Program-made: the position numbers and the translations under genes
IMG/VR virus record: IMGVR_UViG_3300004463_000226
Span: 62,001-126,000 of that record
Length of the DNA stretch: 64,000 nt
Reading direction: 5' to 3' (one strand)
DNA from: a virus
Part shown: one piece after another, positions 9,701 to 57,681 of the stretch
Layout: each line of letters opens with the position of its first letter
Position numbering within the stretch: position 1 is the first letter of the stretch
Notes under the pieces: generated by a model
Seen by the model: the letters and a program-made list of their open reading frames with translations, nothing else
Databases searched by the model: none
What the model was told of the DNA's origin: nothing

Positions 9701-12700
9701 AGGGGATGTTGTAGGTGTAATAGGAACTACTACTGTTAAGTTAGTTGGTTCTGTTGGAAATCTAGTTTCCACATCATTACAATCCTTAGTAAAAGTTGGA
9801 GAATCTTTATTGTCATCTGCTGGTAAATTAATTGCTGGTACAACAAAGATGCTTGTAGATTTCTCACTCAATACAGTTCAAGCTGTTGGTAATACACTTA
9901 AAACCGTCGGAAAAACAATATTAGACGTTGTAACCTCTCCACTTAAGTTCATAGCTGGTGCAGTAGGAAAGTTATTTGGAATAGATCAACGTGAAGTAAC
10001 TGTTAAAGGCGGTCATTTAGATAGTGTTGGCGAAGTTCATATAATTCGGGATGCTCCAACAGTCGGTACTAATGATTACAGTGGAATTATCCATGCAATT
10101 AAAGAAGGATTCCATTCATTACTTCCATTACCTGTGTATGTTGTAAATGAACATCATGACGGAGGAAATCCTGACGGTGGTCCAAGTGGTCATCATAGTG
10201 GTGGACGTACACCATCTCCAGGTGGAGGAGGTAGAAGACCTCGTATAGGCAGTTCTATTAGAAGTGCATTTGGACGAACTCGTGCTGGAAGAGCAGTATC
10301 TGCTGTTTCTAACGGTATGAGAGGAGTTCGTAGTGCTATTAGTGGTGGCTTAGCTGGAGGAATGAAAGCTTCGTTAATGGGAACTTTTAAAGGTTTCATT
10401 AACAGAAGAAAAAGCAATATCAATATCGAAGACAAGTTAACTAAAATGAATATTCTTCCTGGCGCTAACGGTAATATTATTCCTTTCCCTCAACCAGGGA
10501 AAGCAATGGGTGCTTTGGGTTCTATTGTTAATTCAGTATTCGGTACAATGGCATTACCTAATATTTATGGTGGTGGTTTAATATCTGAAAAGAAAGTAGA
10601 TGTATCGGGACAAGCTCCTGTTCGTGATATTAACCATGAAACATCTGTTAGGGAAGAAAAGTCTGAAAAAGCTGCTGTAGCTGGTTTTAGGGTTGCAAAT
10701 ATAGGTTTACTATCTATGATTGAATCTAATACTCGCAGAGCGGCTGATGATCTTGATTGGATCGTAGGCTGGTTGAAGAAGTTTAAGTTCCCTGAACAGA
10801 AATGCTGCCCAATGATTATTCCTCCACTAGGAGGAGGTGGTAGCGGTGGATTCTTCGGGGGATCTCCTGGTGGTGCTGGTGGTGCAGCAACCGCGACTGG
10901 TTCAGGTGCTGGTTCAGGTGCAGGTACAAATAGCACAGGTTCAGCTGGAACTGGTGGTAATGGAGGTATGTTCATAGGACAGCCAAATAAAGAAAAAACC
11001 AAGTCTACGCCTCCAGGAACTAAAGGCGGTAAACCTATTCCAGAAGTTACAAAACCTGCTGGTCCAGTAGTAGCTCCAGTAATACCAATGTCACCTAATG
11101 ATCCTAAGAAACCTGCTACTCCAGGACAAAAACCTGGAACTCTAGTTCCTTTACCAAATACAAAACCTGAGGTTGAGAAACCTGCGGCTAAAGGTAAAAA
11201 TGGGGAAGTTATTAAATTCGAACCAAAAACACCAAATACTCCTAATGAGCATCAACAGCCATTACCAAAAGTAGCTGGTGGAGATACTTATTATCCTCCA
11301 GTACTGGATGATAATAATAAAAATAAACCAGGCGGAAATAACGGTCCTACCATGTCCCATGGCGGTAATAATAGCAATGGAAGTGGTGATAATGTATATA
11401 GATTCCCTGGTAGTAATAATGATGATGGTGGAGACTATCCGTCCTCAGATGGAGGAAATTCACGTCGTGGAGGAGGAAGCGGAAACGGTGGTAATAACGG
11501 TGGATCTGATGGAGGAGATAATACTCCTAAACCTAAGAAACGCGGTATATTTGATCGAATCAAAGGCGCTTTCAAGAAAACTCCTAACAATGTGGAGAAA
11601 TTCCCTACAGGTGGAAAAGGTGGTAAATTCGGAGCTATCAAAAATGTTGTAGGAGGACTATTAGGACTATTCAAAAAATCTGATATTCCAGACAATGTTG
11701 TTGATATGAATGGCAAACCTAAAGGCTCTGGTAAACCAACTAAAGGAGCAGATGTAATTGATATGTTCGGAGGAGACTCATCATCTCCTAAAGAAAAAGG
11801 AGGTCTTTTAAGTAAATTAAAAGGCATGTTCAGTAAATCTCCTAAACCAGATAATGTCATTGAGATGCCTAACCAAAAACCAAGTTTATTTAGTAAACTA
11901 GGTGGAATGTTTAGTAGGGGTGGTGGACAAGCTGCTGCCGCAGGTGCAAGTAAAGCTGCTGGTGGTGGACTTATCAGAGGAGCCCTTAGAGGTGCTGGAG
12001 GTTTATTAGGAAGTATCCCAGGAATGAACTTGTTAATGGGTGGAGTCGGCGGTATGATGGCTTACAACCGTACTGGGAATATATTCGGAACTGAAGATCC
12101 TACAGCGGGTCAAAAAACAGCTGCTGCTATTGGCGGTACAGCAATAGGTCTTATTCCAGGAGTTAGTTTAGTTGATGCTGTAACAGGAGGTTCAATTTCT
12201 AATGTAGCTGCTAAAGCAACATATGGAATTGGTACTGGTATCGGTAAGGCATATACTGCTATCACAGATGGCACTGCTGGGAAAGCTATAGCTAAAGGAA
12301 CCAAAGCAACTGGAAAATGGATTTCTGAGAAATCGCAACAAGCTGGATCTGCTATCGCCAAAGGCGCAAGTGCTGTAGGAGGAGCTATTGCAACTGGAGC
12401 AAGTAACGCTGGGCAATGGATTGGTGATAAAGCTCAACAAGCTGGAAATGCTATTGCTAATAGTAAATTTGGTCAAGCTGTTGGTGGAGCTGCTCAAGGT
12501 ATTGCTAACGGAGCTAAGAGTTTCTGGAATAACTCTGCAATCGGTGGCGCGGTAAATGGTTTCAGAGCAAGCAATGAACAAGTAATGCAAAACTTCGGTG
12601 TTAAAGGTGATCCTAGTAAAGTTACCACTGGCATGAAAGTTGCTAATGGTATGGCTGAAGGTCTTGAAAAACTATCTGGTGGTAAATTTGATGCTGAAAA

Positions 12701-15700
12701 ATCTATTAAGATAATCTATGGTATTGGAGTTACCTTCGAAGAGGGTTTCAAGAAAATAAAAGATAGTGTAGATAAAATGCTAGATCCATTGAAAAAAGGC
12801 TGGGATAAATTTAGTGGAGATATGAAAAAGATTGGTACTGAAGTTGCTGATCGTACGAAAAAAACTTGGGATGCTATGTCGAAAGATGCTAGTGAAACAT
12901 GGGACAAAACCAAGAAAGCAGCAAGCCTTGTCGGTAAAGCAATATCCATCGCAGCTAAGGAAAAATGGGAAAACCTCAAGAAAGATGTAGGTGATAAATG
13001 GGATAAAACTAAAACAGCAGTTAACACAGTAGTAAAATTAATACCAGGTTTAACTAAAACAGCATGGAATAAAACAAAAGATAAAGTTAAAGATGGATGG
13101 GAAGATGTTAAGAGTGCTGCTGTTGGAGTTATAAAACTTCTCCCTAAAAGTACACAGGATAAATTGTCTGAAACAGGCAAGAAACTTGAATCTGGATGGG
13201 ATGATGTTAAGACAACTGTAACTTTGGCAGGTAATACTATTAAAGTTGCATCTGGTAAGATATGGGATAAGATCGCCCAATCTACTTCTGAGGGGTGGGA
13301 AAACCTTAAGGAAGATATAGGTAAAGGTATAGATAAAATGAAAGAAAAGATTAGTGAAGGAGTCGCAGCATTAAAAGAACCTTTTACTGATCTTGGAGGT
13401 AAATTAAAGAAAAAAGCCGAAGAAGCATTAGAGAAACTTGGCTTCGGTAATGGTGTGGGTAGTTATGGAATGGGTAAACCTAAACAGAATGCTATTCGAA
13501 ACTCTGCACAGGTAAAACAAGCAGATGAGGATACTTCTGAATGGGGAGCTGGTAAAGTTAAACCTACAACCCTAAATGGTATGACATATTACTCACAAAA
13601 TGATTCTAGATGGTCAGGTAAGTCATTGACTAGCGGTGCAGGAGCTCCATCATTTGGAGATGCTGGTTGCGGTCCTACCGCAGCGGCTATGGTACTATCT
13701 TCTGTTACAGGTCAAACAGTTACACCTACAGATACACTTAGAATGGCACAAGAAGGTGGGTACGTTGACCGTGAAAAAGGAACAAGTTCGGCAATGTTCA
13801 CTGATGTGGGTTCGAAGTTTGGTGTACCTATTGTACCGTATGCTAATAATCCTAGTACTTTAAAAGAAGACTTATCTAAAAATCGTCCTGTAATTCTTCG
13901 TGGACAAGGCGGAAAAGCATTTACTAATGCTGGTCACTTTGTTGTAGCTACAGGATTAGATTCAAAAGGAAATGTACTTGTAAATGATCCTATTAGTAAA
14001 AACAGAAGTCGTGCATATAAGGCTGAAGAATTATTACAAAACACAACAAGCTCTTATGTAGCATATCCTGAATTAAGCCCGTATGCAAAACAATTCGGAG
14101 CTGGTAAGATAGGAGATAAGGCAACTGTTGAATTTGCTAGAGGAAAAGGTACAGTTGATGCTGTTATCGCTGAAGCAAAAACATGGTTAGGAGTTCCTTA
14201 TGTATTTGGTGGTACTACTAAACGAGGAGTTGACTGTTCTGGATTTACTCAGGCAGTGTTCCGAGATGCAGGTGGTATTAACCTTCCACGTACAGCTGCA
14301 CAACAAGCAACAGTAGGTGTACGTATAAGTGATAATGATATCCAGCCTGGAGATTTAGTATTCTTTGCTAACACATACAAACCTGGTATTTCACACGTTG
14401 GTATTGCTCTAGGTGGTGGTAAATTTATTGGTGCTAACGGTAATAACGTTAATATCGCAGATTATACCACAGGATACAATAAGGCACACTATAGTCACGC
14501 CCGTCGTTATAATTTACAAGGTGCTGGTTCAGGTAGCTCAAGCCCTGCTCCTACTACATCAAGTGATTCATCATCTAGTTCAGGAACATCAGCTGTAGCT
14601 ACAGCTGCTAAGGCTCTAACTGGCGCAGCATTATGGTTATGGAAACAAGATAAAGCAACTGAGACTTTCGAAACTATCACATCCAATGCTTTAACTGGAC
14701 GTCGTGATAAGGTTGACTGGACAATTCCTACTGAAGGTGGAGATGTAGCATCATCAACTGGTTCAGCCGCAGAAAGTGCAGGATCTTCTACACCAAGTAG
14801 TGGAGGATTCAATATCGATGGGTTTATTCCTAAAAATACTCAGGACGCTATTCTAAAGAAAACTGCTGAGTTAACAGCAATGAACGAAACAAATGGTAAC
14901 TACACATATGGTAAAAACGACTTCCGTGCAGGCGGAGGAAGGATTTCTCCATCAGTAGGTGTCATTCAGTGGCGTGGAAATTACGTTAGAAGCATGATGC
15001 AACAAATGCATCAGAAATTACCAAATGACCCGCGTGCAGCATATTATGCTAATCAAGTAAACTGGAATAACGATTCTCCTTGGAGCACAGGGCAGCAAAA
15101 TGATCTTGAGAAATATCTGAAAGATAACTATGCTGTAACCAAAGCAGTACAAGATGGAATGTTATTAAACCATGTTAGAGATGTCAACTTGTCTCAAGTT
15201 TACAAGCATGGTGTTGCAACAGGTAAGATTAAGAATCCATCAAGTATCGTTATGTTAGGTGAATTCGCGCAGACAGGACCAGGTAATGTTAAACCATTTA
15301 TGAATTCATTCTCTGGTGACCCTAATAGTTTCCCTCACTTTGTGAATGAATTTAGATCAGGTAAGAGCTTCTGGGGACGTCATTTAGGCATATACAATGG
15401 TCGTGTTCAGAAAGATATTAACGCATTATCTAACTGGAGTCCTGAAACAGGTAAAGGTTTTGGTAATGAAACTTCTAAAGAAGAAACTGGTTTTGGAAAC
15501 AAAGTTAAGGCAGTGTTTGGACGTGGTCCAGCATGTAACATAAAACCTTCAACAGGATTTGGTAGCAGAATCAAGAATATGTTTGGAAAAGGTTTAGATC
15601 GTGCAAAATCTTTGATTAATGTATTTGGATCTGGTGCTAAGGATGAGGTTAAAGTTACTAAATATAACGGTAAAATAATAGGAGATCAACCAACTTTCGC

Positions 15701-16166
15701 TAAAGGTTACTCTCCAGGGGAAACAGAAACAGACGTCCCTGAAGTAACAAAATCTGCTATTACTGCTATTGAGAACAGTGCATCTAGACCTACAGCTAGA
15801 GTAACTAGAACTAAGTATCCTGAATCATATGGTAAAGGATTCACTGACTCTTACATGGTTCAACAGCAGACTAAAGCTATAGTGGAAGGTAATAAAGATG
15901 CTTCTATTATTAAGCAAGCACTTGAGTTGTTAGGAGAGATTGCATACAACACTAGAACTACATCTGAAGGAATTAATCATTTATCGTCTAAACCAGCTTT
16001 CAATCAGGTAGTAACATCATCTAATGATAGAGGGAATACAACGGTGAATAGTAATTCTCAGTATAATTCCAATCCTGTCCTAGGAGCTATGCAAGGATCA
16101 CAGCCATCAGCAAAAAGTCAGAAAGATTACAATACAGCGAAAGCAATAGCTGGTGGTAGAATCTAA
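3747..16166 (+). CDS. Giant tail tape-measure protein with C39, NlpC/P60 and lysozyme-like domains
   Basis: At 4139 residues this is far longer than typical tape measures. Residues 1712-1745 show the HASGIDNVPxDxYxxxLHxGEMVVPA-type motif typical of tape measures. Residues about 1025-1250 hold three hydrophobic Gly-rich repeats, each with PGG(P/L)I and ending in a phenylalanine-rich FGE motif. A long Gly/Pro-rich linker (about 2345-2620) and Trp-spaced helical repeats (about 3000-3190) follow. Near the C-terminus lie a C39-like peptidase (C3308 in GCGPTAAAM, H3397), an NlpC/P60 domain (C3497 in DCSGF, H3550) and a lysozyme-like domain around E3714. The protein would set tail length and open the cell wall during DNA entry. 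At about 1.5 angstrom per helical residue it could span roughly 600 nm if fully extended. SH3 and baseplate genes follow. Confidence 0.93.
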   Translation: MATKKGSIHKSNPAQLNWFKNVAKSLGYTTTELVTSIAPSMGEFISENTDYTKELYNDLRQSKSANKKLSNLFGTTAQMGIAKDALKNAIEDIKSGKIYNKERQEAMYDVDMDDIDLDDSFGMSEFSFDDKGGDKGSTVEVDDASKKNELPSITIKNIQPPISPNNPMVKAVQQQTSATLNAAQANINAQTSIAASQSSMTHRIGTGTLNGLQAVNDNLSLLVNFQNDSMAKYVGASLKYYEDSLKAMSDTLAELKRANNPPEQEKKEKGKDPVDNVFLSYGGLNFKGYVDQVKKNFERQFSENMFLQPIKMMFEDTDTLKSIAASPLSFISTKIVTTLIPQMLQQSMQNLDKSFSSFFPALIMKINKMATSSSNPFIQILGEIFGAASRSKSSVDLSRYNRGQIPFDGETKKSIVEVIPGYLRKILAALDGKEEVAYDLNTGTWKTVSKMKDEFDSLQKMYTLNPFMGTIDTLKQRSEAFQFKNVEDRRKFNEGIEQFFINMSKNGNPVNPFVKRDKDGLSRDEMAETFDFDGNKGMQKIFRELILSLSKSEQIKVLGGKDIISSRKNVRNFMEKAEEDPTLHNANLLFNEMGFDGHMRTDKATKEKKLKKGFGLFNPVDKFNLSSLDYLRSIKTILLQGLRVFPVTDLGNRGPSIRRGQKMRGHNALDPEITNIIERYEKERNYMLDEVRRKKKEENNKKKATNGTVSLTPEEIAALPGQGQVLLENTQDASRMSREDLANRIQAHQDYKKTLPEKDNQKKDITQWLGKFFKGDNQERFNLLREKVNGLLRKPAELLRSVFDKIDNSMYDIVFGVPGEEGHKSFFESTLNRLSEKFEGMGVWIKTKVFEPIKDSLIGEDGIITKMKNSEFFQSLKANTKKFGDWMFGKPDGKGVRRDGLLANTGNNILDMWDAAKYYFTGKGYVNRAGIKFEDNDESVLRQAKTIFKNFSKDLKHYLVGDKKATDEDNKRGVLSGILGGLKQGFVNFKDAIFGPSDRAKKNGETTFKELAESFKKKAPKALAWGTVGAGLGTGVAMAGGMGLLGSIFLPGGPIGAALLGTSLGFLSQSDRFMNWAFGEKNANNERIGGVISKGTQDWFKKNRAYLIGGAMIGALKPILGVGLLPSFLLPGGPIAGALFGVGTAMLVRSEGFQNFMFGEKDADGKRTGGFLSRSYSKIRGKMTNKDGNNLLGNMGAGAIGGAGIAAVIGKMGFLGAMLTPGGLIGGAVLGAAAGIALSSDRWKKALFGEWDDKTGLRKGGLLGKFTNWFGLEVMHPLGNQLKQINLNFQKWFTEKISNPFTDAINPMKQAFKNMTTDLSDFFKKGWDGFKEKIGEVFEKNVGQPFGQFMKEKVMDPLKGFLSKIIMGVGKIFAPIAEAPVKILSSFAQGFRKNQEKRGLNKHIEDGWEEITDFKGRRERGERLGIKGFFKKLNEMYFDKEARDNARFGEHGASYAREDDAKITERNKRQQDKFAKRQAEIDAERERLDKHRKLGLRYDYDNFDDKGRDISRIYNILKSRSGYKHFMKKDGAGDQLQRDIGQHLGVNLMDLLQVKDRDSFNPAVLTKGQKAIIRKALKSGRTGSSLLSLFGIKLPKNETPEKPAGDEVKSSVESMADKVTEAIKNASPIDAIKDTLVPVVRETNNKLSEIASKIGEVLGINSRRFKSKKSGDTSNIPPQDGGERNIVIRSPKHLPKVLKFNRKKNDDDLPSHASGIDNVPHDNYIANLHQGEMVVPAKQANEIREANGQPKEKESTVTGPIDNTNRLVNHMLPSSSMPKNRDGILRRIATDVRTIAREVYGQLDGVGSNIYKMRKLLQQSNGVSDEDLTGSANRDRVGFWGHLKRAIYKPFDFIRDKVTQVVGNVLDKVRKFGGAIVNVAKTVVMIPVDIVKNIGKGLWAATKSIGNMLLSAGKEFVKLPGKLIGVVGSAVEAVGHAVKALGPALGKVVEGAAGLVSGAAKGLGNVLSGVGKGIGSFAHNLGKSLGDVVGVIGTTTVKLVGSVGNLVSTSLQSLVKVGESLLSSAGKLIAGTTKMLVDFSLNTVQAVGNTLKTVGKTILDVVTSPLKFIAGAVGKLFGIDQREVTVKGGHLDSVGEVHIIRDAPTVGTNDYSGIIHAIKEGFHSLLPLPVYVVNEHHDGGNPDGGPSGHHSGGRTPSPGGGGRRPRIGSSIRSAFGRTRAGRAVSAVSNGMRGVRSAISGGLAGGMKASLMGTFKGFINRRKSNINIEDKLTKMNILPGANGNIIPFPQPGKAMGALGSIVNSVFGTMALPNIYGGGLISEKKVDVSGQAPVRDINHETSVREEKSEKAAVAGFRVANIGLLSMIESNTRRAADDLDWIVGWLKKFKFPEQKCCPMIIPPLGGGGSGGFFGGSPGGAGGAATATGSGAGSGAGTNSTGSAGTGGNGGMFIGQPNKEKTKSTPPGTKGGKPIPEVTKPAGPVVAPVIPMSPNDPKKPATPGQKPGTLVPLPNTKPEVEKPAAKGKNGEVIKFEPKTPNTPNEHQQPLPKVAGGDTYYPPVLDDNNKNKPGGNNGPTMSHGGNNSNGSGDNVYRFPGSNNDDGGDYPSSDGGNSRRGGGSGNGGNNGGSDGGDNTPKPKKRGIFDRIKGAFKKTPNNVEKFPTGGKGGKFGAIKNVVGGLLGLFKKSDIPDNVVDMNGKPKGSGKPTKGADVIDMFGGDSSSPKEKGGLLSKLKGMFSKSPKPDNVIEMPNQKPSLFSKLGGMFSRGGGQAAAAGASKAAGGGLIRGALRGAGGLLGSIPGMNLLMGGVGGMMAYNRTGNIFGTEDPTAGQKTAAAIGGTAIGLIPGVSLVDAVTGGSISNVAAKATYGIGTGIGKAYTAITDGTAGKAIAKGTKATGKWISEKSQQAGSAIAKGASAVGGAIATGASNAGQWIGDKAQQAGNAIANSKFGQAVGGAAQGIANGAKSFWNNSAIGGAVNGFRASNEQVMQNFGVKGDPSKVTTGMKVANGMAEGLEKLSGGKFDAEKSIKIIYGIGVTFEEGFKKIKDSVDKMLDPLKKGWDKFSGDMKKIGTEVADRTKKTWDAMSKDASETWDKTKKAASLVGKAISIAAKEKWENLKKDVGDKWDKTKTAVNTVVKLIPGLTKTAWNKTKDKVKDGWEDVKSAAVGVIKLLPKSTQDKLSETGKKLESGWDDVKTTVTLAGNTIKVASGKIWDKIAQSTSEGWENLKEDIGKGIDKMKEKISEGVAALKEPFTDLGGKLKKKAEEALEKLGFGNGVGSYGMGKPKQNAIRNSAQVKQADEDTSEWGAGKVKPTTLNGMTYYSQNDSRWSGKSLTSGAGAPSFGDAGCGPTAAAMVLSSVTGQTVTPTDTLRMAQEGGYVDREKGTSSAMFTDVGSKFGVPIVPYANNPSTLKEDLSKNRPVILRGQGGKAFTNAGHFVVATGLDSKGNVLVNDPISKNRSRAYKAEELLQNTTSSYVAYPELSPYAKQFGAGKIGDKATVEFARGKGTVDAVIAEAKTWLGVPYVFGGTTKRGVDCSGFTQAVFRDAGGINLPRTAAQQATVGVRISDNDIQPGDLVFFANTYKPGISHVGIALGGGKFIGANGNNVNIADYTTGYNKAHYSHARRYNLQGAGSGSSSPAPTTSSDSSSSSGTSAVATAAKALTGAALWLWKQDKATETFETITSNALTGRRDKVDWTIPTEGGDVASSTGSAAESAGSSTPSSGGFNIDGFIPKNTQDAILKKTAELTAMNETNGNYTYGKNDFRAGGGRISPSVGVIQWRGNYVRSMMQQMHQKLPNDPRAAYYANQVNWNNDSPWSTGQQNDLEKYLKDNYAVTKAVQDGMLLNHVRDVNLSQVYKHGVATGKIKNPSSIVMLGEFAQTGPGNVKPFMNSFSGDPNSFPHFVNEFRSGKSFWGRHLGIYNGRVQKDINALSNWSPETGKGFGNETSKEETGFGNKVKAVFGRGPACNIKPSTGFGSRIKNMFGKGLDRAKSLINVFGSGAKDEVKVTKYNGKIIGDQPTFAKGYSPGETETDVPEVTKSAITAIENSASRPTARVTRTKYPESYGKGFTDSYMVQQQTKAIVEGNKDASIIKQALELLGEIAYNTRTTSEGINHLSSKPAFNQVVTSSNDRGNTTVNSNSQYNSNPVLGAMQGSQPSAKSQKDYNTAKAIAGGRI

Positions 16167-27762: not shown

Positions 27763-28911
27763 ATGAGTATTTTTGGTGGATCTAAATCTACTTCTACTGC
27801 TGTACCAGCAACTCAGATTCCTGTCTATGAAGGATATGACCAAGAGGTTAACGGCGATATCATCGCTCTTCAAGAAAGCTTGGAGGACCAGATGGCTATC
27901 ATTGAAGCAATTCACACTCTTGACATGGAAGAGATTGCTTTACGCAGCGATGTTAAGGTAATGGAGGCAAGCGGCTCTTCTGAAGCTGAAATTGCATCTC
28001 GTTACCAAGATTACTCCGTTGTTACAGAAAGCATGGTTAAGAATGCTTGGGATAAAATCAAGAAATTCTTTGCTAAGCTTTGGGGTAAAATTAAAGCTTT
28101 CTTCAAATCTGCTGTTCAAATGTTTGACAGCCTTTGGATGAGCTCTAAAAAATTTATTGAAAAATATGAAGGCGAATTAAAGCGCCGCGATCTTACTGGC
28201 TTCAAATACAAAATGTTCGTTTACAAGAACATTGATGGTGCGAAGTTCATGGATATGAAAGTTCCTCAAGAAGCAAATAAACTTCTTGAAACTGCTAAAG
28301 TTATCGCTGAGTCTCGTGAACAAATGAGCCCTGGTGCGGCTGGCGCAGAAGGAGCTACAAAAGGACAACGTAACCAACGTCTATATGATGAGGTTGCTAA
28401 ACTTAAAGAACAAAAAGAAGAAATGCTTGATGCATATCGTCGCCAATGTGTTGAAGGACTAGGCGCTGGTTCAGGATCTTTGAGTGCATCTCAATTTGAT
28501 AAAGTATTGTATGCTGGTTTCCGTAACGGTGCATATGGTAAAGATGCAATGAAAGAAGAGCCAGTTACTATCTCTCAAATCATTGAAGATATCAAATCTG
28601 CTGGTGACGGTAAAGCAAAAGCTGAAGCATTCTCTAAAACTGTTGATGAGGAATTTAGCCGCATCATCAAAGAAATGGAACAGCTTGAATCTAAATCTAA
28701 AGAATCTGGTGTAGAGAAGAAAGACGGCTATGACGCTAAGCATAATGAGAAAGTTATCTCTGCTGCTCAAGGTTACGCTTCTCTATTCAGTGGCTATAAG
28801 GATATTCACCTTACAGTATTCCGTGCTTGGAAAACAGCTTTTGCTGAACGTAACACAGCTTACAAACAATGTGCTGCTGCGGCTTTACGTTACAAGCCTA
28901 AAAAAGACTAA
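27763..28911 (+). CDS. Tandem virion paralog 1, with candidate prohead-protease site
   Basis: The 382-residue protein is the first of four related genes. It starts MSIFGGS like the next one. The first 89 residues are acidic and end in VVTE|S, then comes an amphipathic basic helix (KNAWDKIKKFFAKLWGKIK). T4 prohead protease gp21 cuts after LxE/IxE-type sites, and the other three paralogs have a similar site at the same place. This suggests an N-terminal capsid-targeting piece removed on maturation, as in T4 internal proteins. Frequent GGC, CGC and TTC codons suggest high expression. Function after cleavage is unknown. Confidence 0.7.
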   Translation: MSIFGGSKSTSTAVPATQIPVYEGYDQEVNGDIIALQESLEDQMAIIEAIHTLDMEEIALRSDVKVMEASGSSEAEIASRYQDYSVVTESMVKNAWDKIKKFFAKLWGKIKAFFKSAVQMFDSLWMSSKKFIEKYEGELKRRDLTGFKYKMFVYKNIDGAKFMDMKVPQEANKLLETAKVIAESREQMSPGAAGAEGATKGQRNQRLYDEVAKLKEQKEEMLDAYRRQCVEGLGAGSGSLSASQFDKVLYAGFRNGAYGKDAMKEEPVTISQIIEDIKSAGDGKAKAEAFSKTVDEEFSRIIKEMEQLESKSKESGVEKKDGYDAKHNEKVISAAQGYASLFSGYKDIHLTVFRAWKTAFAERNTAYKQCAAAALRYKPKKD

Positions 28912-28947
28912 TATAAACTTTACCTTATAAAAAGGAGGATAATGCAC

Positions 28948-30024
28948 ATGTCTATTTTCGGTGGTTCTAGAACACAAACTACTCCAGTAGTTGAAGCATA
29001 TGACGGTTTCGTAGGTGATGATTTAGCAGGCATGCAGACTATCGTTCATGAAGCTGCTCAAGACCTATTCCGTCTTCGCGCAGGGATGTATATCTCTGAT
29101 ATCATTATGGAAGAGCAAGTCCTTGAAGGACTTTCTACTCCAGAAGTGCTTATGGAAGGTTTCGTTAAAGATTCCTTCGGTAAGCTTAAAAATGCCGTTA
29201 TGAAGTTATGGGCTAAGGTTAAAGCTTGGTTTGCTAAAGCTAAGAAAAACCTTATCATCTTCTTCACATCTGGTGAAAAATTCATCAACAAATTCAAAAC
29301 AGAAATCGAAGGTAAAGCTTCTGGCGGATTCCGCTATGAAGGCTACCATTACGATATGTCTGCTGGTGATTCAGCAGTTAAACATGCTGAAGATGTATTT
29401 GAAAAAGTCGTTGACTTAAATGCAAATACTATCGACAGCCAACATGGTGACCTAACTAATGAAGGTAACCATAAAGAGAAATTCAATATCTCTGAAGAAA
29501 AAACTGACCACATCAAAAAAGCGGGCGCTGATGACATGAGCACATTGCTTAAAAACATCGCTAAAGCATACCGCAAGGATAAAGTTAGTAAAGATTCTTT
29601 CAAAGACTTTAACGGTAACTCCAAAGGCGAATTAATCGGCTTTGTTGCTAACGGTAAACAACAAATTAAAGATCTTGAAAACTACCAAAAGATGCTTGAT
29701 GACCGCTTTGAGCGTGTAACATCTGCAATCGACCGTGCAAAAGCTAAAATCCAAGGTGCTGAGGCAACTAGTGATGAAGCTGAAACATCAAAACGCGGAA
29801 AAGCTGTGAGCTATGCTCAACATAAAGTTGAAATGGCTCAATTCGGATTATCTTCCCTTACACAGCTCATTTCTGCTAAAATCGATATCCGTAAGGAAGC
29901 AGCTAAAGAAGCTGAAAAAGTACTTAAATCTTTCCTTCATTACAAAGAGCCTGTTAAAGAGAGCTTTGGTGGTTATGAAGGTACTGGGGAATCCGTACTT
30001 GAAGCAGCAATGCGCCATATCTAA
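28948..30024 (+). CDS. Tandem virion paralog 2, with candidate prohead-protease site
   Basis: 358 residues from the ATG at 28948. The ATG at 28942 is only three bases from the AGGAGG site and is less likely. It shares the MSIFGGS start with paralog 1. VLE|G at residue 60 and VLME|G at residue 70 are followed by FVKDSFGKLKNAVMKLW, the same amphipathic basic helix. It has high-expression codon use. A VLE|A word also occurs near the C-terminus. It probably makes an internal-head or core protein, inferred from the processing-like sites. Confidence 0.7.
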   Translation: MSIFGGSRTQTTPVVEAYDGFVGDDLAGMQTIVHEAAQDLFRLRAGMYISDIIMEEQVLEGLSTPEVLMEGFVKDSFGKLKNAVMKLWAKVKAWFAKAKKNLIIFFTSGEKFINKFKTEIEGKASGGFRYEGYHYDMSAGDSAVKHAEDVFEKVVDLNANTIDSQHGDLTNEGNHKEKFNISEEKTDHIKKAGADDMSTLLKNIAKAYRKDKVSKDSFKDFNGNSKGELIGFVANGKQQIKDLENYQKMLDDRFERVTSAIDRAKAKIQGAEATSDEAETSKRGKAVSYAQHKVEMAQFGLSSLTQLISAKIDIRKEAAKEAEKVLKSFLHYKEPVKESFGGYEGTGESVLEAAMRHI

Positions 30025-30033
30025 TTAACACAA

Positions 30034-30067
30034 ATATACTAGATGACCTCATAGTCATCTAGTATAT
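30034..30067 (+). terminator. Hairpin terminator between paralogs 2 and 3
   Basis: A 14-bp perfect stem (ATATACTAGATGAC and its complement) with a CTCATA loop and a T6 tail separates the two strongly expressed paralogs from the two less biased ones. Confidence 0.9.
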
Positions 30068-30117
30068 TTTTTGCGTCATAAACAAATTAGTAAGAGTATA
30101 AGTAAAGGAGTGGAAAT

Positions 30118-31200
30118 ATGTTAATAGGTAATGTATTTACAAACAAACCTACCTCTAATAGTGTAACTAAACTAAGCTATGAAAGTGCTGATTTTGATTA
30201 CACAAACAGACTGTTAGAACAGAACCTCTGGATGGAAGACTCTTATTTCAATATTGTCCGTGAGCATATGATGGTTACACATCTAGCCTTAAAGGATGAT
30301 AATGTAGATATTCTTCAAGAGGGATTTTCTGACTTTATGAGGTCTGCTGGAGAGTTCTTTAAAAATCTTCTAGAGAAGTTTAAAGAATTCATGTCAAGAG
30401 TATTCATGTACATCTATGCTTATATGGGAAATTTCGAGAAGTTTCTCATGAAGTATAAAGATAAGTTACATTCATTGAATCCTGATTTTAATATCAGTGG
30501 ATATGATTATAGCTTTAGTACGGGTGTACCAAATCTTGAAAAAGTTAAGCATATTGTAATGGATTACAACAATCAGCTTAATGAAGTTCAAAAACAAACT
30601 AAGCGTGATATAGTAGCTACTCGCGCCGAGGTATTATCTGCTGATAGAATGAACAGTATTAGATCCTATACACTTGGTCAAGCAACACCTATATCTAAGG
30701 AAGAATTCTTATCAGCATCTAAGAAATCTTATCGCAATGGAGCGTCATCCACTACAGATAAGCATATTGATAAATCTCGTTTAATTCGAGCTATTGATGA
30801 TTATCCCAATATCAAAAAGCTCAAGAAAGAGTGTGAGAAAGAAAAGAATGATGTTATTGATTTGATTGAAAGCCTTAAGGATTTCTTCAATAAAAGTACA
30901 TCTGTTCATTATAAAGGTGAGAATAAAACAATTTATGTTAACAGTGCAGAATTAAATGCTGATGGTACTGCTGTTAATAAAGGAACTCAGACTGAGCTTA
31001 ATTATAGTATTGATCGTGTAGAAATTATCAATCTATTCTACAATATAAAGTTTGCTGAAGCCAAAGAAATCGGAGCTATTGCTACTACGGCAATTACTGA
31101 GAAGGTAAATGCTCTAAAAGAGTATTTGAAGTTTACTCAAGACATCATCCGTGAATCTTTAGGTTTCAAAGAATCACCACAAGAAGGAGGTACTAAGTGA
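30118..31200 (+). CDS. Tandem virion paralog 3, with candidate prohead-protease site
   Basis: 360 residues. It keeps the layout of paralogs 1 and 2 with little identity: an acidic N-terminal part, ILQE|G at residue 68, an amphipathic helix (FMRSAGEFFKNLLEKFKEF), then a globular body starting with a GYDY motif comparable to GYHY in paralog 2. Codon use is ordinary. Its stop overlaps the next gene's ATG (TGATG), so the two are translationally coupled. Confidence 0.65.
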   Translation: MLIGNVFTNKPTSNSVTKLSYESADFDYTNRLLEQNLWMEDSYFNIVREHMMVTHLALKDDNVDILQEGFSDFMRSAGEFFKNLLEKFKEFMSRVFMYIYAYMGNFEKFLMKYKDKLHSLNPDFNISGYDYSFSTGVPNLEKVKHIVMDYNNQLNEVQKQTKRDIVATRAEVLSADRMNSIRSYTLGQATPISKEEFLSASKKSYRNGASSTTDKHIDKSRLIRAIDDYPNIKKLKKECEKEKNDVIDLIESLKDFFNKSTSVHYKGENKTIYVNSAELNADGTAVNKGTQTELNYSIDRVEIINLFYNIKFAEAKEIGAIATTAITEKVNALKEYLKFTQDIIRESLGFKESPQEGGTK

Positions 31201-32306
31201 TGACAGATTATACTATTCCTACACTGGAATTTCATCTGCGCTTAAATACGTCTATGCATGAAATTCTATTTGAACAAATGGAAGCAGAGTCAGAGTTTAT
31301 TCTTTCTTGTTTGGAGAATATGCAGATTGTTACTGAAGCGGAAGTTCAAGACAAGAAATCTAAACAAGGTATCTTCCAGAGAATCATCAACTTTATCAAG
31401 AAACTATTTACATCATTTGCTGATAAAGCCAAGTTAATTGAACAGGCTAATAGAAAATGGATGGATGAAAATCTAGCAAAGTTAGATAATATTAACTTTG
31501 ACGGTCTTGAAATTGAAATGGTTCCGTTCTGGATAATGAATAGCGCTGGCTCTAAACGAGGTAGAGAAGAAGGAACTAAAATTGCAAATTCTCTAGGATC
31601 TGCAATGAAAAAAGGTAAGTATAAGGATATGGATCTATTAAAGAAAGATTATCTCAGTAACTACATGAAAGAAGGAGACTTCACTGCTGGGATAAAAAAC
31701 TATCTTCGTTATGGTAGTGCTAATGGAGATAAACCTGTTAAATTAGTAGGTCGGGACTTAAAGAAGAAAGTTTTAGGTGAAATGCGACCATATTGTGACA
31801 AGTATAAAAACGAAGCTGCTGAAGCTATCAAAGGCATGTCTGAAGCCATAAATAAAATTGCTAGTGCGGTAGATAAAGAAGTCGATCGTCGTGAGCTGAA
31901 GCCTACAAGTGAAAGCTTCTGTATGATTGAGGGAATGCCTTATAATAAGACTGAACTTATCTACTGTGAGAACTTTATTGTTATGGAAGCTGATGAAGGT
32001 AAGAAAGAAGATACTACAGGTAAATTAGTTGATAATACTTCTAATAAAGAAGTAGAAGAAAGAAAAGCAGCTACAGATGTCGGTATACGCGACCATGGAT
32101 CTAAGCAAGCAGCTAAGTTAGTAGGTAATGCTGAAAAAGCAAATGATGATGTTCTAATAGCTACTAAGAATGCTCTTCAAATCATGCAAACTATAGCAGC
32201 TGCTCAAATGACAGTTGCCGAAGAAGCATATCATGCATACTTAAGTGCTATTAAGCAGATTGTATCTGCCAGAGGACCTAAATCTTCTTCTGAAGAAAAT
32301 AAATAA
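31200..32306 (+). CDS. Tandem virion paralog 4, with candidate prohead-protease site
   Basis: 368 residues from the ATG at 31200, nine to ten bases after an AGGAGG site. The GTG at 31197 overlaps the upstream stop. IVTE|A at residue 46 precedes a basic amphipathic helix (IFQRIINFIKKLFTSF). It has the shortest N-terminal piece of the four. The C-terminal half is Lys/Glu/Ala-rich and helical. Grouping with paralogs 1-3 rests on layout and the cleavage-like word. Confidence 0.6.
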   Translation: MTDYTIPTLEFHLRLNTSMHEILFEQMEAESEFILSCLENMQIVTEAEVQDKKSKQGIFQRIINFIKKLFTSFADKAKLIEQANRKWMDENLAKLDNINFDGLEIEMVPFWIMNSAGSKRGREEGTKIANSLGSAMKKGKYKDMDLLKKDYLSNYMKEGDFTAGIKNYLRYGSANGDKPVKLVGRDLKKKVLGEMRPYCDKYKNEAAEAIKGMSEAINKIASAVDKEVDRRELKPTSESFCMIEGMPYNKTELIYCENFIVMEADEGKKEDTTGKLVDNTSNKEVEERKAATDVGIRDHGSKQAAKLVGNAEKANDDVLIATKNALQIMQTIAAAQMTVAEEAYHAYLSAIKQIVSARGPKSSSEENK

Positions 32307-51002: not shown

Positions 51003-51080
51003 TTTTTTTGTATAAATTCGTATATTATATTTTACTTTAACTACATTTTATTAAAATATACAGTTTTGCGAGGTGATATC

Positions 51081-51509
51081 TTGGCTTTCAAGTATGAAGT
51101 AGGATTTGGTCTAGATAATTTCCAAAAGGCTAAAATTCTAAATGCTAAAGAATCAGTAGTTCAGATGATCCTCAACATGTTTATGATGCGTCCAGGGAAC
51201 ATGCCTTCAATGCCGCATTTAGGAATTAATATTCAAAGCTATCTGTATAGGCAAGATGGTGATGTTGATTTAGAAGGTTTAAGAACTAAGATTTTTTCAA
51301 ATTGTACCGATCTACTATCATTCTTAACCTTTGGTGACATCAAAGTATTCTTTGCACCATACAATGGTCAATCTGTTCTTGTGACAGTTATTCCTATTCA
51401 GGGCTTGGAGTCTTCTGCGAGCGACGTCTTAATGGTAGGATTTACAAAGGACACTAACAATGATCTCTTGTTCAGCTATAAATTTGAGCAGGGACAAATA
51501 TTCAATTAA
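51081..51509 (+). CDS. Baseplate wedge protein, gp25/GPW-like
   Basis: 142 residues. The core RPGNMPSMPHLGINIQSYLY (from about residue 38), followed by an acidic helix, matches the gp25/GPW family, which joins wedge arms to the sheath in contractile tails. The family usually runs 110-150 residues. A TTG start at 51081, nine bases after AGGTGAT, is preferred: a TTG at 51066 lies ahead of the site. It is followed 18 bases later by the gp26-like gene. Confidence 0.75.
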   Translation: MAFKYEVGFGLDNFQKAKILNAKESVVQMILNMFMMRPGNMPSMPHLGINIQSYLYRQDGDVDLEGLRTKIFSNCTDLLSFLTFGDIKVFFAPYNGQSVLVTVIPIQGLESSASDVLMVGFTKDTNNDLLFSYKFEQGQIFN

Positions 51510-51527: not shown

Positions 51528-53359
51528 ATGTCAGATCAAAATTTTACTCCAGATTTAACGCAAATGGTACAAAATGAGCAACAGCGCGTGCAAATGCAAC
51601 AACCTATTACAGGACAAGTTCCTCAACAACCAGTGGTGCAACAGGCTGTTTATCAAGCACCCCAGCAACAAATTATTACAAATGTGATTGGTGATCAGCA
51701 ATTAGCTCGTCCAGTATTACCACAAGATGGTATTATTACATCACCAGCATCATCTCCTTCATCAGGTCTAGTTATCAATGATGCTGAACTTGTTACTCCT
51801 AAAGAGAATCATCCTATTCCAGGGGAACTATCTGAAGAAACATTGTCTAACATTCAGCAATATATGGATGATGTAGAAGGCTCTGATGAAGATATTATGA
51901 GAAATATCGAGCAACGTATGGCATTAGCAGTACAGCCACCAAACGTGGATGAAGAAGCGTTCTATGCACAACAAGAACAGCAAGAAGCACAACAGCCAAA
52001 GAAACAAGAAGCTGCTGAAGAAGATACTAGATCTATAGAAGAGATTGCTCAAGAGCGTGAAGATAAGTTCAATGAAGCTATTGTTCTTATTGATAAGCTC
52101 GGCGGTGGAACTAATATTAACTTCACAGCTGAAGAGCGTGAGAAACTTCAACACGCTAAAACTATTAGATTAAATGAAATTGAAACAGTAGACATCAAGA
52201 AGTTCAAGACTAAAAAATCCAAAACAAATGTTGCCAACATCTTGAAACGTCAACCATCTGTTAATACAACACCAATCGTATTACCTGCTTCAGGCTATAC
52301 GGCATCAGTTAAGGGTCTCTCTACTTATGAAATTATTTCATTAATGCAAAGTACAGAGAATCCATTAATTGACAGTGAAACAAAATGGTCAGTTCTTCAC
52401 AGCAAACTAGTTAACACTAGTATCGGTGAATTGAACTTTAATGATTTCTTACGGGCAACATCATCAACTGATTACAACATGATTATCTTCGGACTATTGT
52501 GTGCAACATACCCAGCTGATGATAAATTACCAGTTAACTGTGTTAACCCTAAATGCGGTAAACCATTTGAGCATGATTACAATGTACGTAGCTTGATTCG
52601 TGCAGAGAAAATGACGGATCGTCTAAAAGAAATGGTAGTTAGAACAGTAGATGCATCTCATACTGAAGAGACAGCTAAACAAGCTCATGCAGATTCTTTA
52701 GTAGGAAAAGTTGAAACTATCACACTACCATCTAGCGGCTATGTACTTGATCTTTATGTACAATCAGCTCATGAATTAATTTATAACTCAGTTAAAGCTA
52801 TGAGCGAAAACACTGATGATAAGCTTAGACAAGCTGGAGTTATGGCTACTGTTGTTAAAACAGCATTTATTCCTGACCCAGATGCTCCAGGCGAATACTT
52901 TGAAATTGATGATGCTGCTGAGATTACACAAGTTGTATACAGCTTAGACAATAAAGATATTCTAGTATTGTCTAAACAAAGCGAACTTCTATTAGAAGAC
53001 ATTGCATTTGATTTCGGTCTAATGAATGTTAAATGTCCTCATTGCGGAGACTATCGTGAAGAAGTACCGTTCGACATTGAATCCATACTTTTTTACCGAT
53101 ATCAACAGGAGATGAATACGAGCGTCGAATAGATCAATTCTACTCTTTCTACGACGAAATGCTTGAACTCTTCAAGGGTCAGATGACCCTTGAAGAGATT
53201 CAATATGGTCTGTCATATAAAGAGGCTCTGAGATTTCGAGATACTCGTATTAAACGATTAAAAAAGGAAAAAGAAGAAATGGAGCTAGAGCGACAGGCTG
53301 AGGCGGAAAGACACGCACGGGAGGCTGCTCGTAATAAAATTATCCTCCCGAACAAGTAA
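51528..53359 (+). CDS. gp26-like baseplate hub assembly chaperone, with probable -1 frameshift to a gp51-like extension
   Basis: The zero-frame product (51528-53132, 534 aa) has a Gln/Pro-rich N-terminus, then the T4 gp26-like pattern with LPASGYTASVKGLSTYEI, a FLRATSSTDYNMIIF-like helix and a zinc pair CVNPKC ... CPHC. It stops at 53132. The -1 frame is open from 53081 to 53359 and encodes GDEYERRIDQFYSFYDEML, then MTLEEIQYGLSYKEALRFR and a charged tail: a recognisable partner domain with no start codon near its beginning. A T6 run at 53088-53096 allows a Phe tRNA to slip from TTT to TTT. A 53159 ATG could start a shorter separate product, but the coding signal begins before it. Confidence 0.72.
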
Positions 53360-53401: not shown

Positions 53402-53791
53402 ATGGACACAATGGTCGAGGTATTTAATCAGTTAACTCATAATGAGTTAGCTGGTTTTTCTTTATTTGAATCTCTGTTAGGGGATCATTATGAGAAATTC
53501 AGGTATTATTATCAGAGTACTAAGAATATTCCCAAGAGTACAACTAAAAGTGTTAAAGGTATTTCTTGTTTCTGTAGCGATGATGGTATAGTTGTTGAGA
53601 CAGCTTTTAAAACTGATAAGGGATGTAATGAATATCTTTCTTATCTACAGCCGTTTATACTATATCCAAATAATGATTACTTCCGTTTCAATGCAGAAAT
53701 TAGAGGAGGTAAAAAATTAAACATCTCAATAGAGAATAAAAGTATCTCTAGGGAGGATGAAATATATGAAGATAGATTTAATTCCTACTAA
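53402..53791 (+). CDS. Hypothetical protein, 129 aa, upstream of RNA polymerase beta'
   Basis: An alpha/beta protein with a Cys-containing SCFCSDDG segment and an aromatic-rich LQPFILYPNNDYFRF strand. It follows GAGAGGGG and overlaps the polymerase gene start by 26 bases, so the two are likely translated together. No family is recognised. A polymerase-associated role is possible only from its position. Confidence 0.6.
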   Translation: MDTMVEVFNQLTHNELAGFSLFESLLGDHYEKFRYYYQSTKNIPKSTTKSVKGISCFCSDDGIVVETAFKTDKGCNEYLSYLQPFILYPNNDYFRFNAEIRGGKKLNISIENKSISREDEIYEDRFNSY

Positions 53792-55355
53792 AAAATTTAT
53801 TGTAGCGAATGGTCTTAAAGAGGTAAGTAACTCTATCTTATTCGAAAAAGGAAGTATCCCTACAACGGATGGTTTATTATCAACTGATATCTTTGGAGTA
53901 TCCGTTAGACAGCGACGTGAAACATATGCTTTCATTAGGCTAAATGGACATTTCTTACATCCATTTATTTACAAGTTACTTAAGCGTATGAATCGTAACT
54001 TTGAGTCTATTGTATACGGAAGAAAGAAGTTTATTATTGATAGTAAAGGGCAATTGGTTGAAGATGAAAAAGGTCAATCAGGTTTAGAGTTCTTATATAA
54101 GAACTGGGATAATATTAACTTCCAAAAAAATAACAGTACGATTCGTAATGAACGTATTGATGTATTAAATTCTTATGATAAGAATACAATCTTTACAGAG
54201 TTCTGGGTTGTAATTCCAGCATTCTATCGTGACGTAAACTTACAGTCATCAGCACAAGGGAAAGTTTCTCACCATGAAATAAACGATAAGTATGCTAAAC
54301 TCATTCGTTTTGCCCAAGCACTAAATAATGATAACAATTTTGACTTTGTATTAAACCAAACTAGAGCAAAAGTTCAAGAGTGTTTGGTCGAGATCTATGA
54401 CTTACTTAAAGGAAAACTGGAGAAGAAACACGGTCTAATTCGTAAATCCCTTCTAGGAAAGTCTATAGACTATGGTTCTCGGTCGGTTATCTCAGCTCCT
54501 GTATTTAACTCAAATACACCTGAGGAAATGAATATTGACTTCTATCACTGTGGAGTTCCATTAGCACAATGCTGTTCACTATTTACTCCATTCATTGTTG
54601 CATGGGTAAAAAGGTTTTTCCAGCGTGAGATAGAAAAGATAGGATCTAAATATCCTGTTAAGAGAAAAGATGGTACGATTGAATACATTCAGCTTAAAGA
54701 TCCAGCTCTTTATTTTAATGAAGAGTATATTAAGAAACAAATTGATCGTTTTGTATTCAGTCCAACTGACCGTTTTGATCCAATTGAATTACCTGTTGAA
54801 GATAAAAACTTTACAGGAAAAGTATACTTAACATTCTCTGGTCGATTCTATGACCATAAGAAACCAGAAACAGAATCTCCATTAACACAACGTCCAGCTA
54901 CATGGTGTGATGTATTATATCAGGCTGCTGTTGATGTAACATCTGATAAAATGGTATGGATAACTCGTTATCCACTACTAGATTACTTTGGTATGTTACC
55001 AAATAAGATATCTGTTCTAAGTACACATAAAACACAAGCTATGTATGTTGGTGGCAAACTGTATACTCACTATCCTATAGTAGATACAACTCTATCTAAA
55101 GATAGATTATCCATCAACTTCATTGATACCGTAACTATGTCTAACCTATACCTTGCAGGATTGGGTGGTGACTACGACGGAGACCAAGTAACACTAAAAG
55201 GTGTTTATTCACAAGAAGCATGTGCTGAAGCAGAAAAAATCATGAAGTCTAAAGCTCATATCTTGAGTATCTATGGACAAAACATGCGTAAGACAACAAA
55301 TGAAGGTGTACAGACATTATACATGCTCACTAAGTTTGACAATAAGGCGGGATAA
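53766..55355 (+). CDS. Phage RNA polymerase beta' subunit, N-terminal half
   Basis: 529 residues. The order of landmarks matches bacterial beta': an N-terminal clamp part (TTDGLLSTDIFGV), a LRKGKRVDYSGRSV-like GKSIDYGSRSVISAP, then FYHCGVPLAQCCSLFTPFIV, and the catalytic double-psi barrel loop GGDYDGDQV (D469, D471, D473). It ends shortly after the NILSP-like and LYMLTK segments, exactly where beta' is split in phiKZ-type jumbo phages. The other half and beta are not in this window. The start at 53766 is preferred over 53757, which touches the ribosome site. Confidence 0.88.
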   Translation: MKIDLIPTKKFIVANGLKEVSNSILFEKGSIPTTDGLLSTDIFGVSVRQRRETYAFIRLNGHFLHPFIYKLLKRMNRNFESIVYGRKKFIIDSKGQLVEDEKGQSGLEFLYKNWDNINFQKNNSTIRNERIDVLNSYDKNTIFTEFWVVIPAFYRDVNLQSSAQGKVSHHEINDKYAKLIRFAQALNNDNNFDFVLNQTRAKVQECLVEIYDLLKGKLEKKHGLIRKSLLGKSIDYGSRSVISAPVFNSNTPEEMNIDFYHCGVPLAQCCSLFTPFIVAWVKRFFQREIEKIGSKYPVKRKDGTIEYIQLKDPALYFNEEYIKKQIDRFVFSPTDRFDPIELPVEDKNFTGKVYLTFSGRFYDHKKPETESPLTQRPATWCDVLYQAAVDVTSDKMVWITRYPLLDYFGMLPNKISVLSTHKTQAMYVGGKLYTHYPIVDTTLSKDRLSINFIDTVTMSNLYLAGLGGDYDGDQVTLKGVYSQEACAEAEKIMKSKAHILSIYGQNMRKTTNEGVQTLYMLTKFDNKAG

Positions 55356-55999: not shown

Positions 56000-56479
56000 A
56001 TGGAAACAGGGTTACTTAAACTAAACGAGGGAGACTCTTATACGCTGTATAAGCGAAAGTCAGCCGAACAATGTACAATTAATGATGTTAAATTATTGGT
56101 GTATGATGTCACTAGACCTGTATTTATTGACACTGATGGAAACAAGATTCCTATTGATTTCACTGATATGGAGCGACTGATATATGTTGGTGCATATAGA
56201 AAGTGTGCAGAAGGATATGCATTTCTTCATTACATCATTCTCATGAATGATAATTCTTATTATGAAATTTACTCTAGTATTGGTGATGTGACATATGGAC
56301 GCATTGAATGTTCTGAGGGTGAAGAGTTAATTGTGAAGGATGCTGATCAGGAAGATTATCCTGAGCATGCTGCTATGATCCTAGAGAAAAATGATACTGT
56401 CATAAGCTGCTGTGTTGTTGATAGAGAAGAAGCTAAAGAACTTATTAAAATTTTAACAGTGTTTGTCGGGGAAGAATAA
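56000..56479 (+). CDS. Paralogous acidic protein, array member 2, 159 aa
   Basis: A beta-rich body with DNSYYEIYSSIGDVTYGRI (about 90-108), then VKDADQEDYPEHAAM and a final helix EEAKELIKILTVF. The same order occurs in members 3 and 4. Ribosome site TTGGAGGA. No function is known. These look like small acidic phage proteins expressed together. Confidence 0.65.
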   Translation: METGLLKLNEGDSYTLYKRKSAEQCTINDVKLLVYDVTRPVFIDTDGNKIPIDFTDMERLIYVGAYRKCAEGYAFLHYIILMNDNSYYEIYSSIGDVTYGRIECSEGEELIVKDADQEDYPEHAAMILEKNDTVISCCVVDREEAKELIKILTVFVGEE

Positions 56480-56510
56480 AAATACTAAAACAAATCGGAG
56501 GGAATAAATT

Positions 56511-57134
56511 ATGAAAAACATGTTTGATGGATTAGAAGTTAATGAAAGATATTTAATTGTTGAGCGTCATAGTAGAGTTACAGTAAAATCAACATTTGTT
56601 GATGTTGAAAGTATCTCTGATGATGGAATTGTATTTGTAGATATGGACGATAACATGTTCTCTTGGGAAAAGAATGATATCCTGAGAGTTCATACTATTT
56701 TCGATGATGTAGAGGCTCCAGATAATGATCATCGTAAGTATAGTAGACTTATGTATGTTGTATGTAAGGAAGACGGTACTTATATTGAATTATATGGTAG
56801 TACTGGCTACATTAGCTTTGGTAAATTGGTAACTGATGCTAGTGAAGAAATCGAAGTTGATGAATCTGATAGACCAGGTTGCGTTGACATATCAATTGAA
56901 GATGAAGACGGCGATCATGCAGTAGGAACCTTTAATGTGGAAGAAGCTAAACAAGTTATTACTATGCTGCAAGATTTTGTCGATTACGCTGAGAAAGAAT
57001 TTGGAAAGAAATCCAATGATGTAATAGATTCGGAAGAAGTTAGACCTGAAGAAGATTGTGTATCTGAAACAACTGAATCAGAGAAAATGGTTTTAGATAT
57101 TGAATCCTATGATCCGAAAGATATCTTAAAATAA
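56511..57134 (+). CDS. Paralogous acidic protein, array member 3, 207 aa
   Basis: The longest of the array. It shares EDGTYIELYGSTGYISFGKL, DESDRPGCVDISI and EEAKQVITMLQDFV with the neighbours, then has a 50-residue acidic tail ending in PKDILK. Start after GGAGGGAATA. Function unknown. Confidence 0.65.
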   Translation: MKNMFDGLEVNERYLIVERHSRVTVKSTFVDVESISDDGIVFVDMDDNMFSWEKNDILRVHTIFDDVEAPDNDHRKYSRLMYVVCKEDGTYIELYGSTGYISFGKLVTDASEEIEVDESDRPGCVDISIEDEDGDHAVGTFNVEEAKQVITMLQDFVDYAEKEFGKKSNDVIDSEEVRPEEDCVSETTESEKMVLDIESYDPKDILK

Positions 57135-57168
57135 AAAAATATAACTTCTGAACACGGGGGAATAGATG

Positions 57169-57681
57169 ATGAAAGAAATGTTTAAAGGTTTTCACTACAC
57201 ATATAAGTATCTTGTTGTAATTCATGATGGAGGTATATTAAAGCATGATATTATAACATTTAATCATAAAGATGATGAATCTATTTTGTTTAATAGAATA
57301 GATGGTGTCGATGTTGAATGGTGTAAGGATGAAATTGTAAGATTTATTAACTGCTCAGAAACATTTAAAATGTCAATAAGTAGTACTTATCCCATGCATA
57401 AAAAATTAATAGCTGCCATGTATCTGAATGATGGGACTTTTATTGAGTTCTTTGATAGAGTAGAAGCTAAAGATTATGGTAATGTGCAGGGAATAGGTTC
57501 TGAAGATTTAATAAATGTTAAAGAATCAGAAGAATATCCTGGCTTTGCAGTAATAACAGTGGATGATGAAACCGATCAAGCAAATCCTACAATAACTGTA
57601 GATGGTGCTGAGAGACTTATTCATATTCTGCAAGAATTTGTAAACGATCATAAAGTAATCGAAGAGACAGAAAGCAAGTAA
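57169..57681 (+). CDS. Paralogous acidic protein, array member 4, 170 aa
   Basis: It begins MKEMFKGFHY, like MKNMFDGLEV in member 3, so the second of two adjacent ATGs is taken as the start. NDGTFIEFFDRVEAKDYGNV and ERLIHILQEFV match the others. Ribosome site CGGGGGAA. Function unknown. Confidence 0.65.
   Translation: MKEMFKGFHYTYKYLVVIHDGGILKHDIITFNHKDDESILFNRIDGVDVEWCKDEIVRFINCSETFKMSISSTYPMHKKLIAAMYLNDGTFIEFFDRVEAKDYGNVQGIGSEDLINVKESEEYPGFAVITVDDETDQANPTITVDGAERLIHILQEFVNDHKVIEETESK

Follow-up and report, generated by a model that had tools for sequence, protein, structure and literature searches.

We report here a phage gene that is very probably decoded as two proteins, a gp26-like short form and a gp51-like long form of one chaperone, through a conserved programmed -1 frameshift. 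The gene lies in a stretch of 64,000 nucleotides (the window) that spans bases 62001-126000 of virus record IMGVR_UViG_3300004463_000226, which is 234,335 bases long. The locus is best explained by a programmed -1 frameshift, because the slip site and the -1 open reading frame (ORF) are conserved together, control genes lack this arrangement, and the -1 frame is under constraint in relatives. Comparative sequence tests support a -1 frameshift, with the exception of a search for stimulatory elements. We infer ribosomal slippage as the route, its efficiency and the functions of the two products. The class of mechanism is already known.

The short form has a poorly conserved N-terminal part, a core with two zinc-ribbon-like CxxC sites and, after the slip site, a tail of 12 codons that runs to the frame-0 stop (Table 1). 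An initial annotation had placed the end of this gp26-like frame at 53132, which is the last base of its TAG codon, and had described a -1 frame that is open from 53081 and has no start codon near its beginning. This frame is indeed open over 53081-53356 and ends with TAA at 53357-53359, and its first ATG, GTG or TTG begins at 53159. A run of six T is present where the same annotation had proposed that TTT at 53091-53093 re-pairs one base back, and the site differs, as it had recognized, from the canonical X XXY YYZ heptamer. The -1 extension comprises a helix bearing the LELFKGQMTLEEI motif, followed by a charged tail. The ATG at 53159 sits within this conserved helix of the -1 domain and has no Shine-Dalgarno (SD) site, its best duplex being +0.4 kcal/mol, whereas the median for 20 ATG starts on the plus strand of the window is -9.35 kcal/mol. 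The predicted tryptic junction peptide is EEVPFDIESILFLPISTGDEYER for the long form and EEVPFDIESILFYR for the short form. No phage tRNAs were found in the window, and an Rfam scan for known RNA elements gave sub-threshold chance matches only.

Table 1. Features at and around the frame junction in the window, and last codons of gp26-type genes in T4-like phages
Feature	Position	Strand	Details
Upstream ORF	51066..51509	+	Occupies gp25 position of relatives
Short-form ORF, frame 0	51528-53132	+	ATG 51528, TAG 53130-53132; 534 aa
Slip site CTT TTT (frame 0)	53088..53093	+	NTT TTY kept in 36/36 distinct junctions
T6 run	53089-53094	+	Frame-0 reading ATA CTT TTT TAC
-1-frame extension	53093..53359	+	88 codons after slip; predicted long form 610 aa
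First -1-frame start codon	53159..53161	+	ATG; no ATG/GTG/TTG earlier in -1 frame
RNA polymerase beta-type gene	53757-55355		PHROG 2986, E 7.8e-98
gp26-type last codons, phiAS5 and DSL-LC02			GAT TTT TTC GCC TGA
gp26-type last codons, S-PM2			TCT TTT TTC GCA TAA
gp26-type last codons, Cr30			GAT TTT TTT CTT TGA
gp26-type last codons, Det7			ATT TTC ATT TAA

Relatives of the window protein are found in jumbo phages of the AR9/PBS1, phiR1-37 and S6 types. With the frame-0 protein as the query, tblastn matched 25 phage records, and the alignments end at residue 522-528 in 24 of them, where the slip falls at residue 522, and at residue 372 in one. The homologue in Erwinia phage Wellington widens the family to 235 records, phiKZ among them. 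A search for related loci using the frame-0 protein alone was unproductive, as were searches from alignments whose divergence was too great to yield patterns and tblastn with the 89-aa -1 part by itself. We took 49 junctions, from the window, 19 named phages and 29 IMG/VR contigs, spanning AR9-, phiR1-37-, S6- and phiKZ-type phages; 13 were dropped as near-identical, leaving 36 distinct junctions. Listeria phage LPJP1 was excluded because its record ends at the site: it is linearized inside the homologous gene, just past CTT TTT, and for this reason neither form is annotated.

A run of at least four T lies within the overlap of the 0 and -1 frames in all 49 junctions. The initial annotation had suggested looking for the same run and frame in related phages, and all 36 distinct junctions combine an in-phase NTT TTY with a -1 ORF that extends at least 190 nt beyond the stop (range 191-467 nt). 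This conservation strongly supports its proposal that a single message yields a short and an extended form. The site reads TTTTTT in 15 junctions, CTTTTT in 12, TTTTTC in seven and CTTTTC in two, and a canonical T TTT TTY heptamer is present in 16 of the 36, the window not among them. All share TT followed by the Phe codon TTY, which allows the Phe-tRNA to re-pair one base back. By contrast, NTT TTY together with a long -1 extension occurs in none of 52 other window genes and none of 172 neighbor genes in the fetched loci, although 8/52 and 24/172, respectively, have a -1 extension that reaches 190 nt or more without the full combination. The arrangement at the homologous junctions is thus not due to chance. 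A +1 frameshift was rejected as a candidate, the +1 frame reaching 190 nt past the stop in only one of the 36 junctions.

Substitutions were tallied by -1-frame codon position between the frame-0 stop and the first start codon in pairs of relatives. Positions 1/2/3 differ at 30/20/74 of 184 each in 10 AR9-like pairs and at 20/18/53 of 121 each in eight phiKZ-like pairs. The excess at position 3 is weaker in cyanophage pairs (0.29/0.33/0.58), in which starts are nearby in many loci. By this measure, the stretch of the -1 frame ahead of its first start codon is constrained at the protein level in relatives; this is established for the relatives rather than for the window, since the window has no close relative.

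These tallies bear on the possibility that the -1 ORF is a small gene of its own, translated into a second protein from an internal start or by stop-start coupling, which we regard as unlikely. Annotators have indeed put a second gene at this place, with varying starts: S-PM2 (L177:2220-2393) is annotated with a 57-aa 'gp51' that begins 2 nt after the stop, and 42 of 80 cyanophage-type loci have a start codon no more than 12 nt from the stop. However, 38 of these 80 loci have no such start, and in 31 of the 36 jumbo-phage junctions there is none between the slip site and 18 nt past the stop. In the jumbo-phage junctions, the first -1-frame starts are located downstream at a median distance of 53 nt and have weak SD sequences, and the codons 5' of them are those found to be constrained. 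A separate gene would also leave the invariant slip site unexplained.

Transcriptional slippage on the T-run, which would generate a mixed mRNA population (+1 U) for normal translation, is very improbable in our view. Runs of up to T8 do occur in BpSp, RAY, AH06 and JM-2012, and these phages have RNA polymerases of their own. However, AH12 and L038 (CTTTTC) have no more than T4 at this place, and AR9, phiR1-37 and S6 have T5. Runs of T4-T5 are shorter than those known to support transcriptional slippage. Moreover, the conserved feature is the codon phase (NTT TTY), as is expected of tRNA re-pairing. The chance of a sequencing or assembly error, or of a decaying gene in the contig, is negligible: the window does come from a single metagenome-derived virus record, but an error in it is excluded by the conservation of the same arrangement in 36/36 junctions, including the complete genomes of AR9, phiKZ, SPN3US and RAY.

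Programmed -1 frameshift sites are commonly, but not universally, accompanied by stimulators such as an SD-like element or a downstream structure. An SD-like element (GGAGG-type) upstream of the slip site was present in only 1/36 jumbo-phage junctions and not in the window, with no enrichment, and downstream structure was not above control (mean z -0.38 vs -0.22; window z 0.06). In the T4-like group, an SD-like element lies 5' of the slip site in 52/80 loci, and downstream structure has a mean z of -1.62 over 77 loci, compared with -0.47 in the control. At bacterial Z_ZZN tetramer sites, a single P-site tRNA slips by -1, and the predicted slip in the window is of this kind, with U UUY read by one P-site tRNA.

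Profile-profile and fold matches support the placement of the window gene in the T4 gp26/gp51 family. The two T4 proteins are listed as hub assembly chaperones in Table 2 of a published account (PMC3004832), which describes gp51 as required yet absent from the particle and the place of gp26 as disputed. Both match PF12322 (gp26, E 8.8e-64; gp51, E 3.9e-52) and each other (blastp 2e-6; profile E 2.6e-21), and they are therefore paralogues, with gp51 continuing for about 48 residues past the domain that it shares with gp26. The initial annotation had described the window gene as a fusion of gp26-like and gp51-like proteins. The frameshift-extended form is strongly supported, but fusion is not an entirely accurate term: since T4 gp51 consists of a gp26 paralogue that is extended at its C terminus, the -1 part corresponds to the gp51 extension only.

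The window protein had no T4_baseplate match in Pfam at E<=1 and stays below the gathering score for PF12322. A profile of 33 T4-type sequences compared with one of 45 jumbo-phage sequences gave Prob 93.4 and E 2.6e-7 over 209 columns, with matching zinc sites, whereas reversed or column-shuffled profile controls gave E 0.097 to 0.87. The T4-type profile reached Prob 90 against the AR9-like subset and Prob 21.5 against the phiKZ-like subset alone, and smaller first alignments of T4-type with jumbo-phage sequences gave Prob 21 only; AR9-like and phiKZ-like profiles match each other with Prob 98 and E 2.8e-13. An AlphaFold model of window residues 238-534 (pLDDT 84.7, pTM 0.82) retrieved T4-like baseplate hub assembly proteins from BFVD (e.g. 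E 6.9e-10, TM 0.60/0.65), and a PDB fold search with it gave no match. The term gp26-like is thus supported at the level of profile and fold. The window protein differs from T4 gp26/gp51 in a large N-terminal addition, in its similarity being below Pfam detection, and in that T4 has two divergent genes. The hhalign comparison offers only weak, suggestive evidence of homology between the jumbo-phage -1 extension and the gp51 tail (Prob 9-15, E 0.0017-0.0034; E 0.099 to 0.82 in controls). A weak match of the -1 part to Pfam Phage_TAC_19 (E 0.015, below cut-off) is not relied on.

Among T4-like phages, phiAS5, DSL-LC02, S-PM2, Cr30 and Det7 have a single gp26-type gene with a -1 extension (Table 1). 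We assembled a homology-based set of cyanophage-type gp26 loci, the best 80 of at least 588 IMG/VR homologues. T TTT TTY is present at the gene end in all of these best 80. In 78 the -1 frame extends 120 nt or more, and the sequence stretches of the other two end there; none has a +1 extension of that length. As exemplified by S-PM2, these phages share with the window the gene order and the place of the second ORF in the -1 frame, but they differ in being annotated with two genes, in the canonical heptamer throughout the set examined (T TTT TTC in S-PM2), and in an upstream SD-like element.

An HMM was built from 80 predicted long forms, 76 from IMG/VR loci and 4 from named phages, after exclusion of 4 of the 80 IMG/VR loci (two with different spacing and two ending just after the stop). 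It was searched against 414 ORFs from four phages in which genes 26 and 51 are separate, and matched only gp26- and gp51-type genes, including all four gp51, and left phiAS4 gp26 unmatched. T4 gp51 aligns across the junction (E 6.5e-10), whereas T4 gp26 aligns at positions 7-239 only, that is, with the short form. An HMM of the extension alone matches the C termini of gp51 of T4 (1.3e-6), phiAS4 (1e-11) and EC-F2 (4e-8), with no match to DLP3 gp51. Because the predicted T4-like long form aligns gp51 across the junction, the short form is the counterpart of gp26 and the whole long form that of gp51. The annotation of S-PM2 hides this relationship, since its 'gp51' is the C-terminal extension only and T4 gp51 a full gp26 paralogue plus extension. 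T4 gp26 retains Phe-Phe at the slip position, but these residues are coded TTC TTT, which does not permit slippage of this kind. Two clean genes in relatives, which the initial annotation had regarded as evidence against a frameshift, do occur in T4-type phages, but the second is a full-length paralogue; this is consistent with the two forms having been split and does not refute frameshifting elsewhere.

The slip motif alone is not proof. Among the matches listed in a scan for the pattern GATTTTTTCGCNTGA (at least 120 stretches), many are genes ending ...LEDFFA, usually with an ATG overlapping the stop, which resemble phage DNA polymerases. Such genes in L059, L066, L068, L070 and others end with TLEDFFA or similar, encoded with GATTTTTTCGC(A)TGA and having the same U UUU UUC; this is perhaps a look-alike slip site that arises from a clamp-binding C terminus. 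Because of such look-alikes, the counts given above were drawn from the homology-based set. Genes in L083, L098, L123 and L142, which may represent a further gp26-like branch, end with SDFFA; their -1 extension is of a different type, and an ATG overlaps the stop.

In the decoding that we propose, most ribosomes would terminate at 53130 and release the 534-aa gp26-like short form. In a minority, the P-site Phe-tRNA would slip from TTT at 53091-53093 to 53090-53092, the next codon would be TTA at 53093-53095, and translation would end 88 codons on, giving a gp51-like long form of 610 aa with an alpha-helical C-terminal extension. For phiKZ, the predicted -1 product of PHIKZ077 would join MLSTFF to YFGGLEVKPDGVVNDLR. 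By analogy, the domain common to both forms may bind the hub/tape-measure complex during assembly, and the extension, which is rarer, may recruit a further partner. The T4 counterparts of the two forms would be encoded by the duplicated genes 26 and 51.

Tail assembly chaperones of the lambda gpG/gpGT type, with their programmed -1 frameshift, were reportedly treated by Xu, Hendrix and Duda in 2004. Lambda gpG/gpGT resembles the window gene as a tail-assembly gene with a short form and a rarer -1 extended form, a slippery run near its 3' end and a second ORF without a start. It differs in that the window gene is not beside a tape-measure gene; in addition, the jumbo-phage sites are often non-canonical, and none of our general searches brought up a sequence link. 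In lambda, the tape measure is described as the binding partner of gpG, and the tube protein as that of the -1 extension of gpGT (PMC5009743), and the division of labor that we infer for the two forms is analogous.

We consider it reasonably likely that ancestral gp26/gp51 was one -1 frameshift gene, which cyanophages, Ackermannviridae-type phages and phiKZ/AR9-type jumbo phages have kept, and that in the T-even lineage a duplication of this gene was accompanied by loss of its slip site. The replacement of the G/GT frameshift by two paralogous genes is an idea already published for other genes, in a main text without gp26/gp51. If our proposal is correct, gp26/gp51 would be the tail-assembly chaperone pair of both the T4 and the phiKZ/AR9 phage worlds, and duplication in T-even phages would have turned a ratio set by frameshifting into two genes. 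It could then be tested whether T4 gp26 and gp51 are a gpG/gpGT-like pair whose short and long forms became separate when the gene was duplicated. Our analysis also points to a likely function of a conserved gene that is 'hypothetical' in most phiKZ- and AR9-type records, corrects its 3' end, where annotation would have missed the long form, and adds a large set of candidate frameshift sites, some of them minimal U UUY sites with no evident stimulators. Our searches of the open-licence PMC literature yielded no description of frameshifting in genes of the gp26/gp51 or phiKZ type, nor of the gene family, the breadth, the minimal site or the link to T4 gp26/gp51.

The upstream ORF of the window had no family match, and blastp of it against AR9_g232 was unproductive; PF04965 was found below threshold in four of eight upstream proteins scanned, that of the window not among the four. 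On the 3' side, the window gene is followed by a small ORF and then the gene for an RNA polymerase beta subunit, with no tape-measure gene adjacent. In T4-like Cr30, two small ORFs come next and then an annotated tape measure. A 4139-aa ORF at 3747-16166 of the window is perhaps a tape measure, with apparent NlpC/P60-type and lytic motifs close to its end. Tandem sets of four and three ORFs that resemble mutual paralogues are present at 27763-32306 and 56000-57681, respectively.
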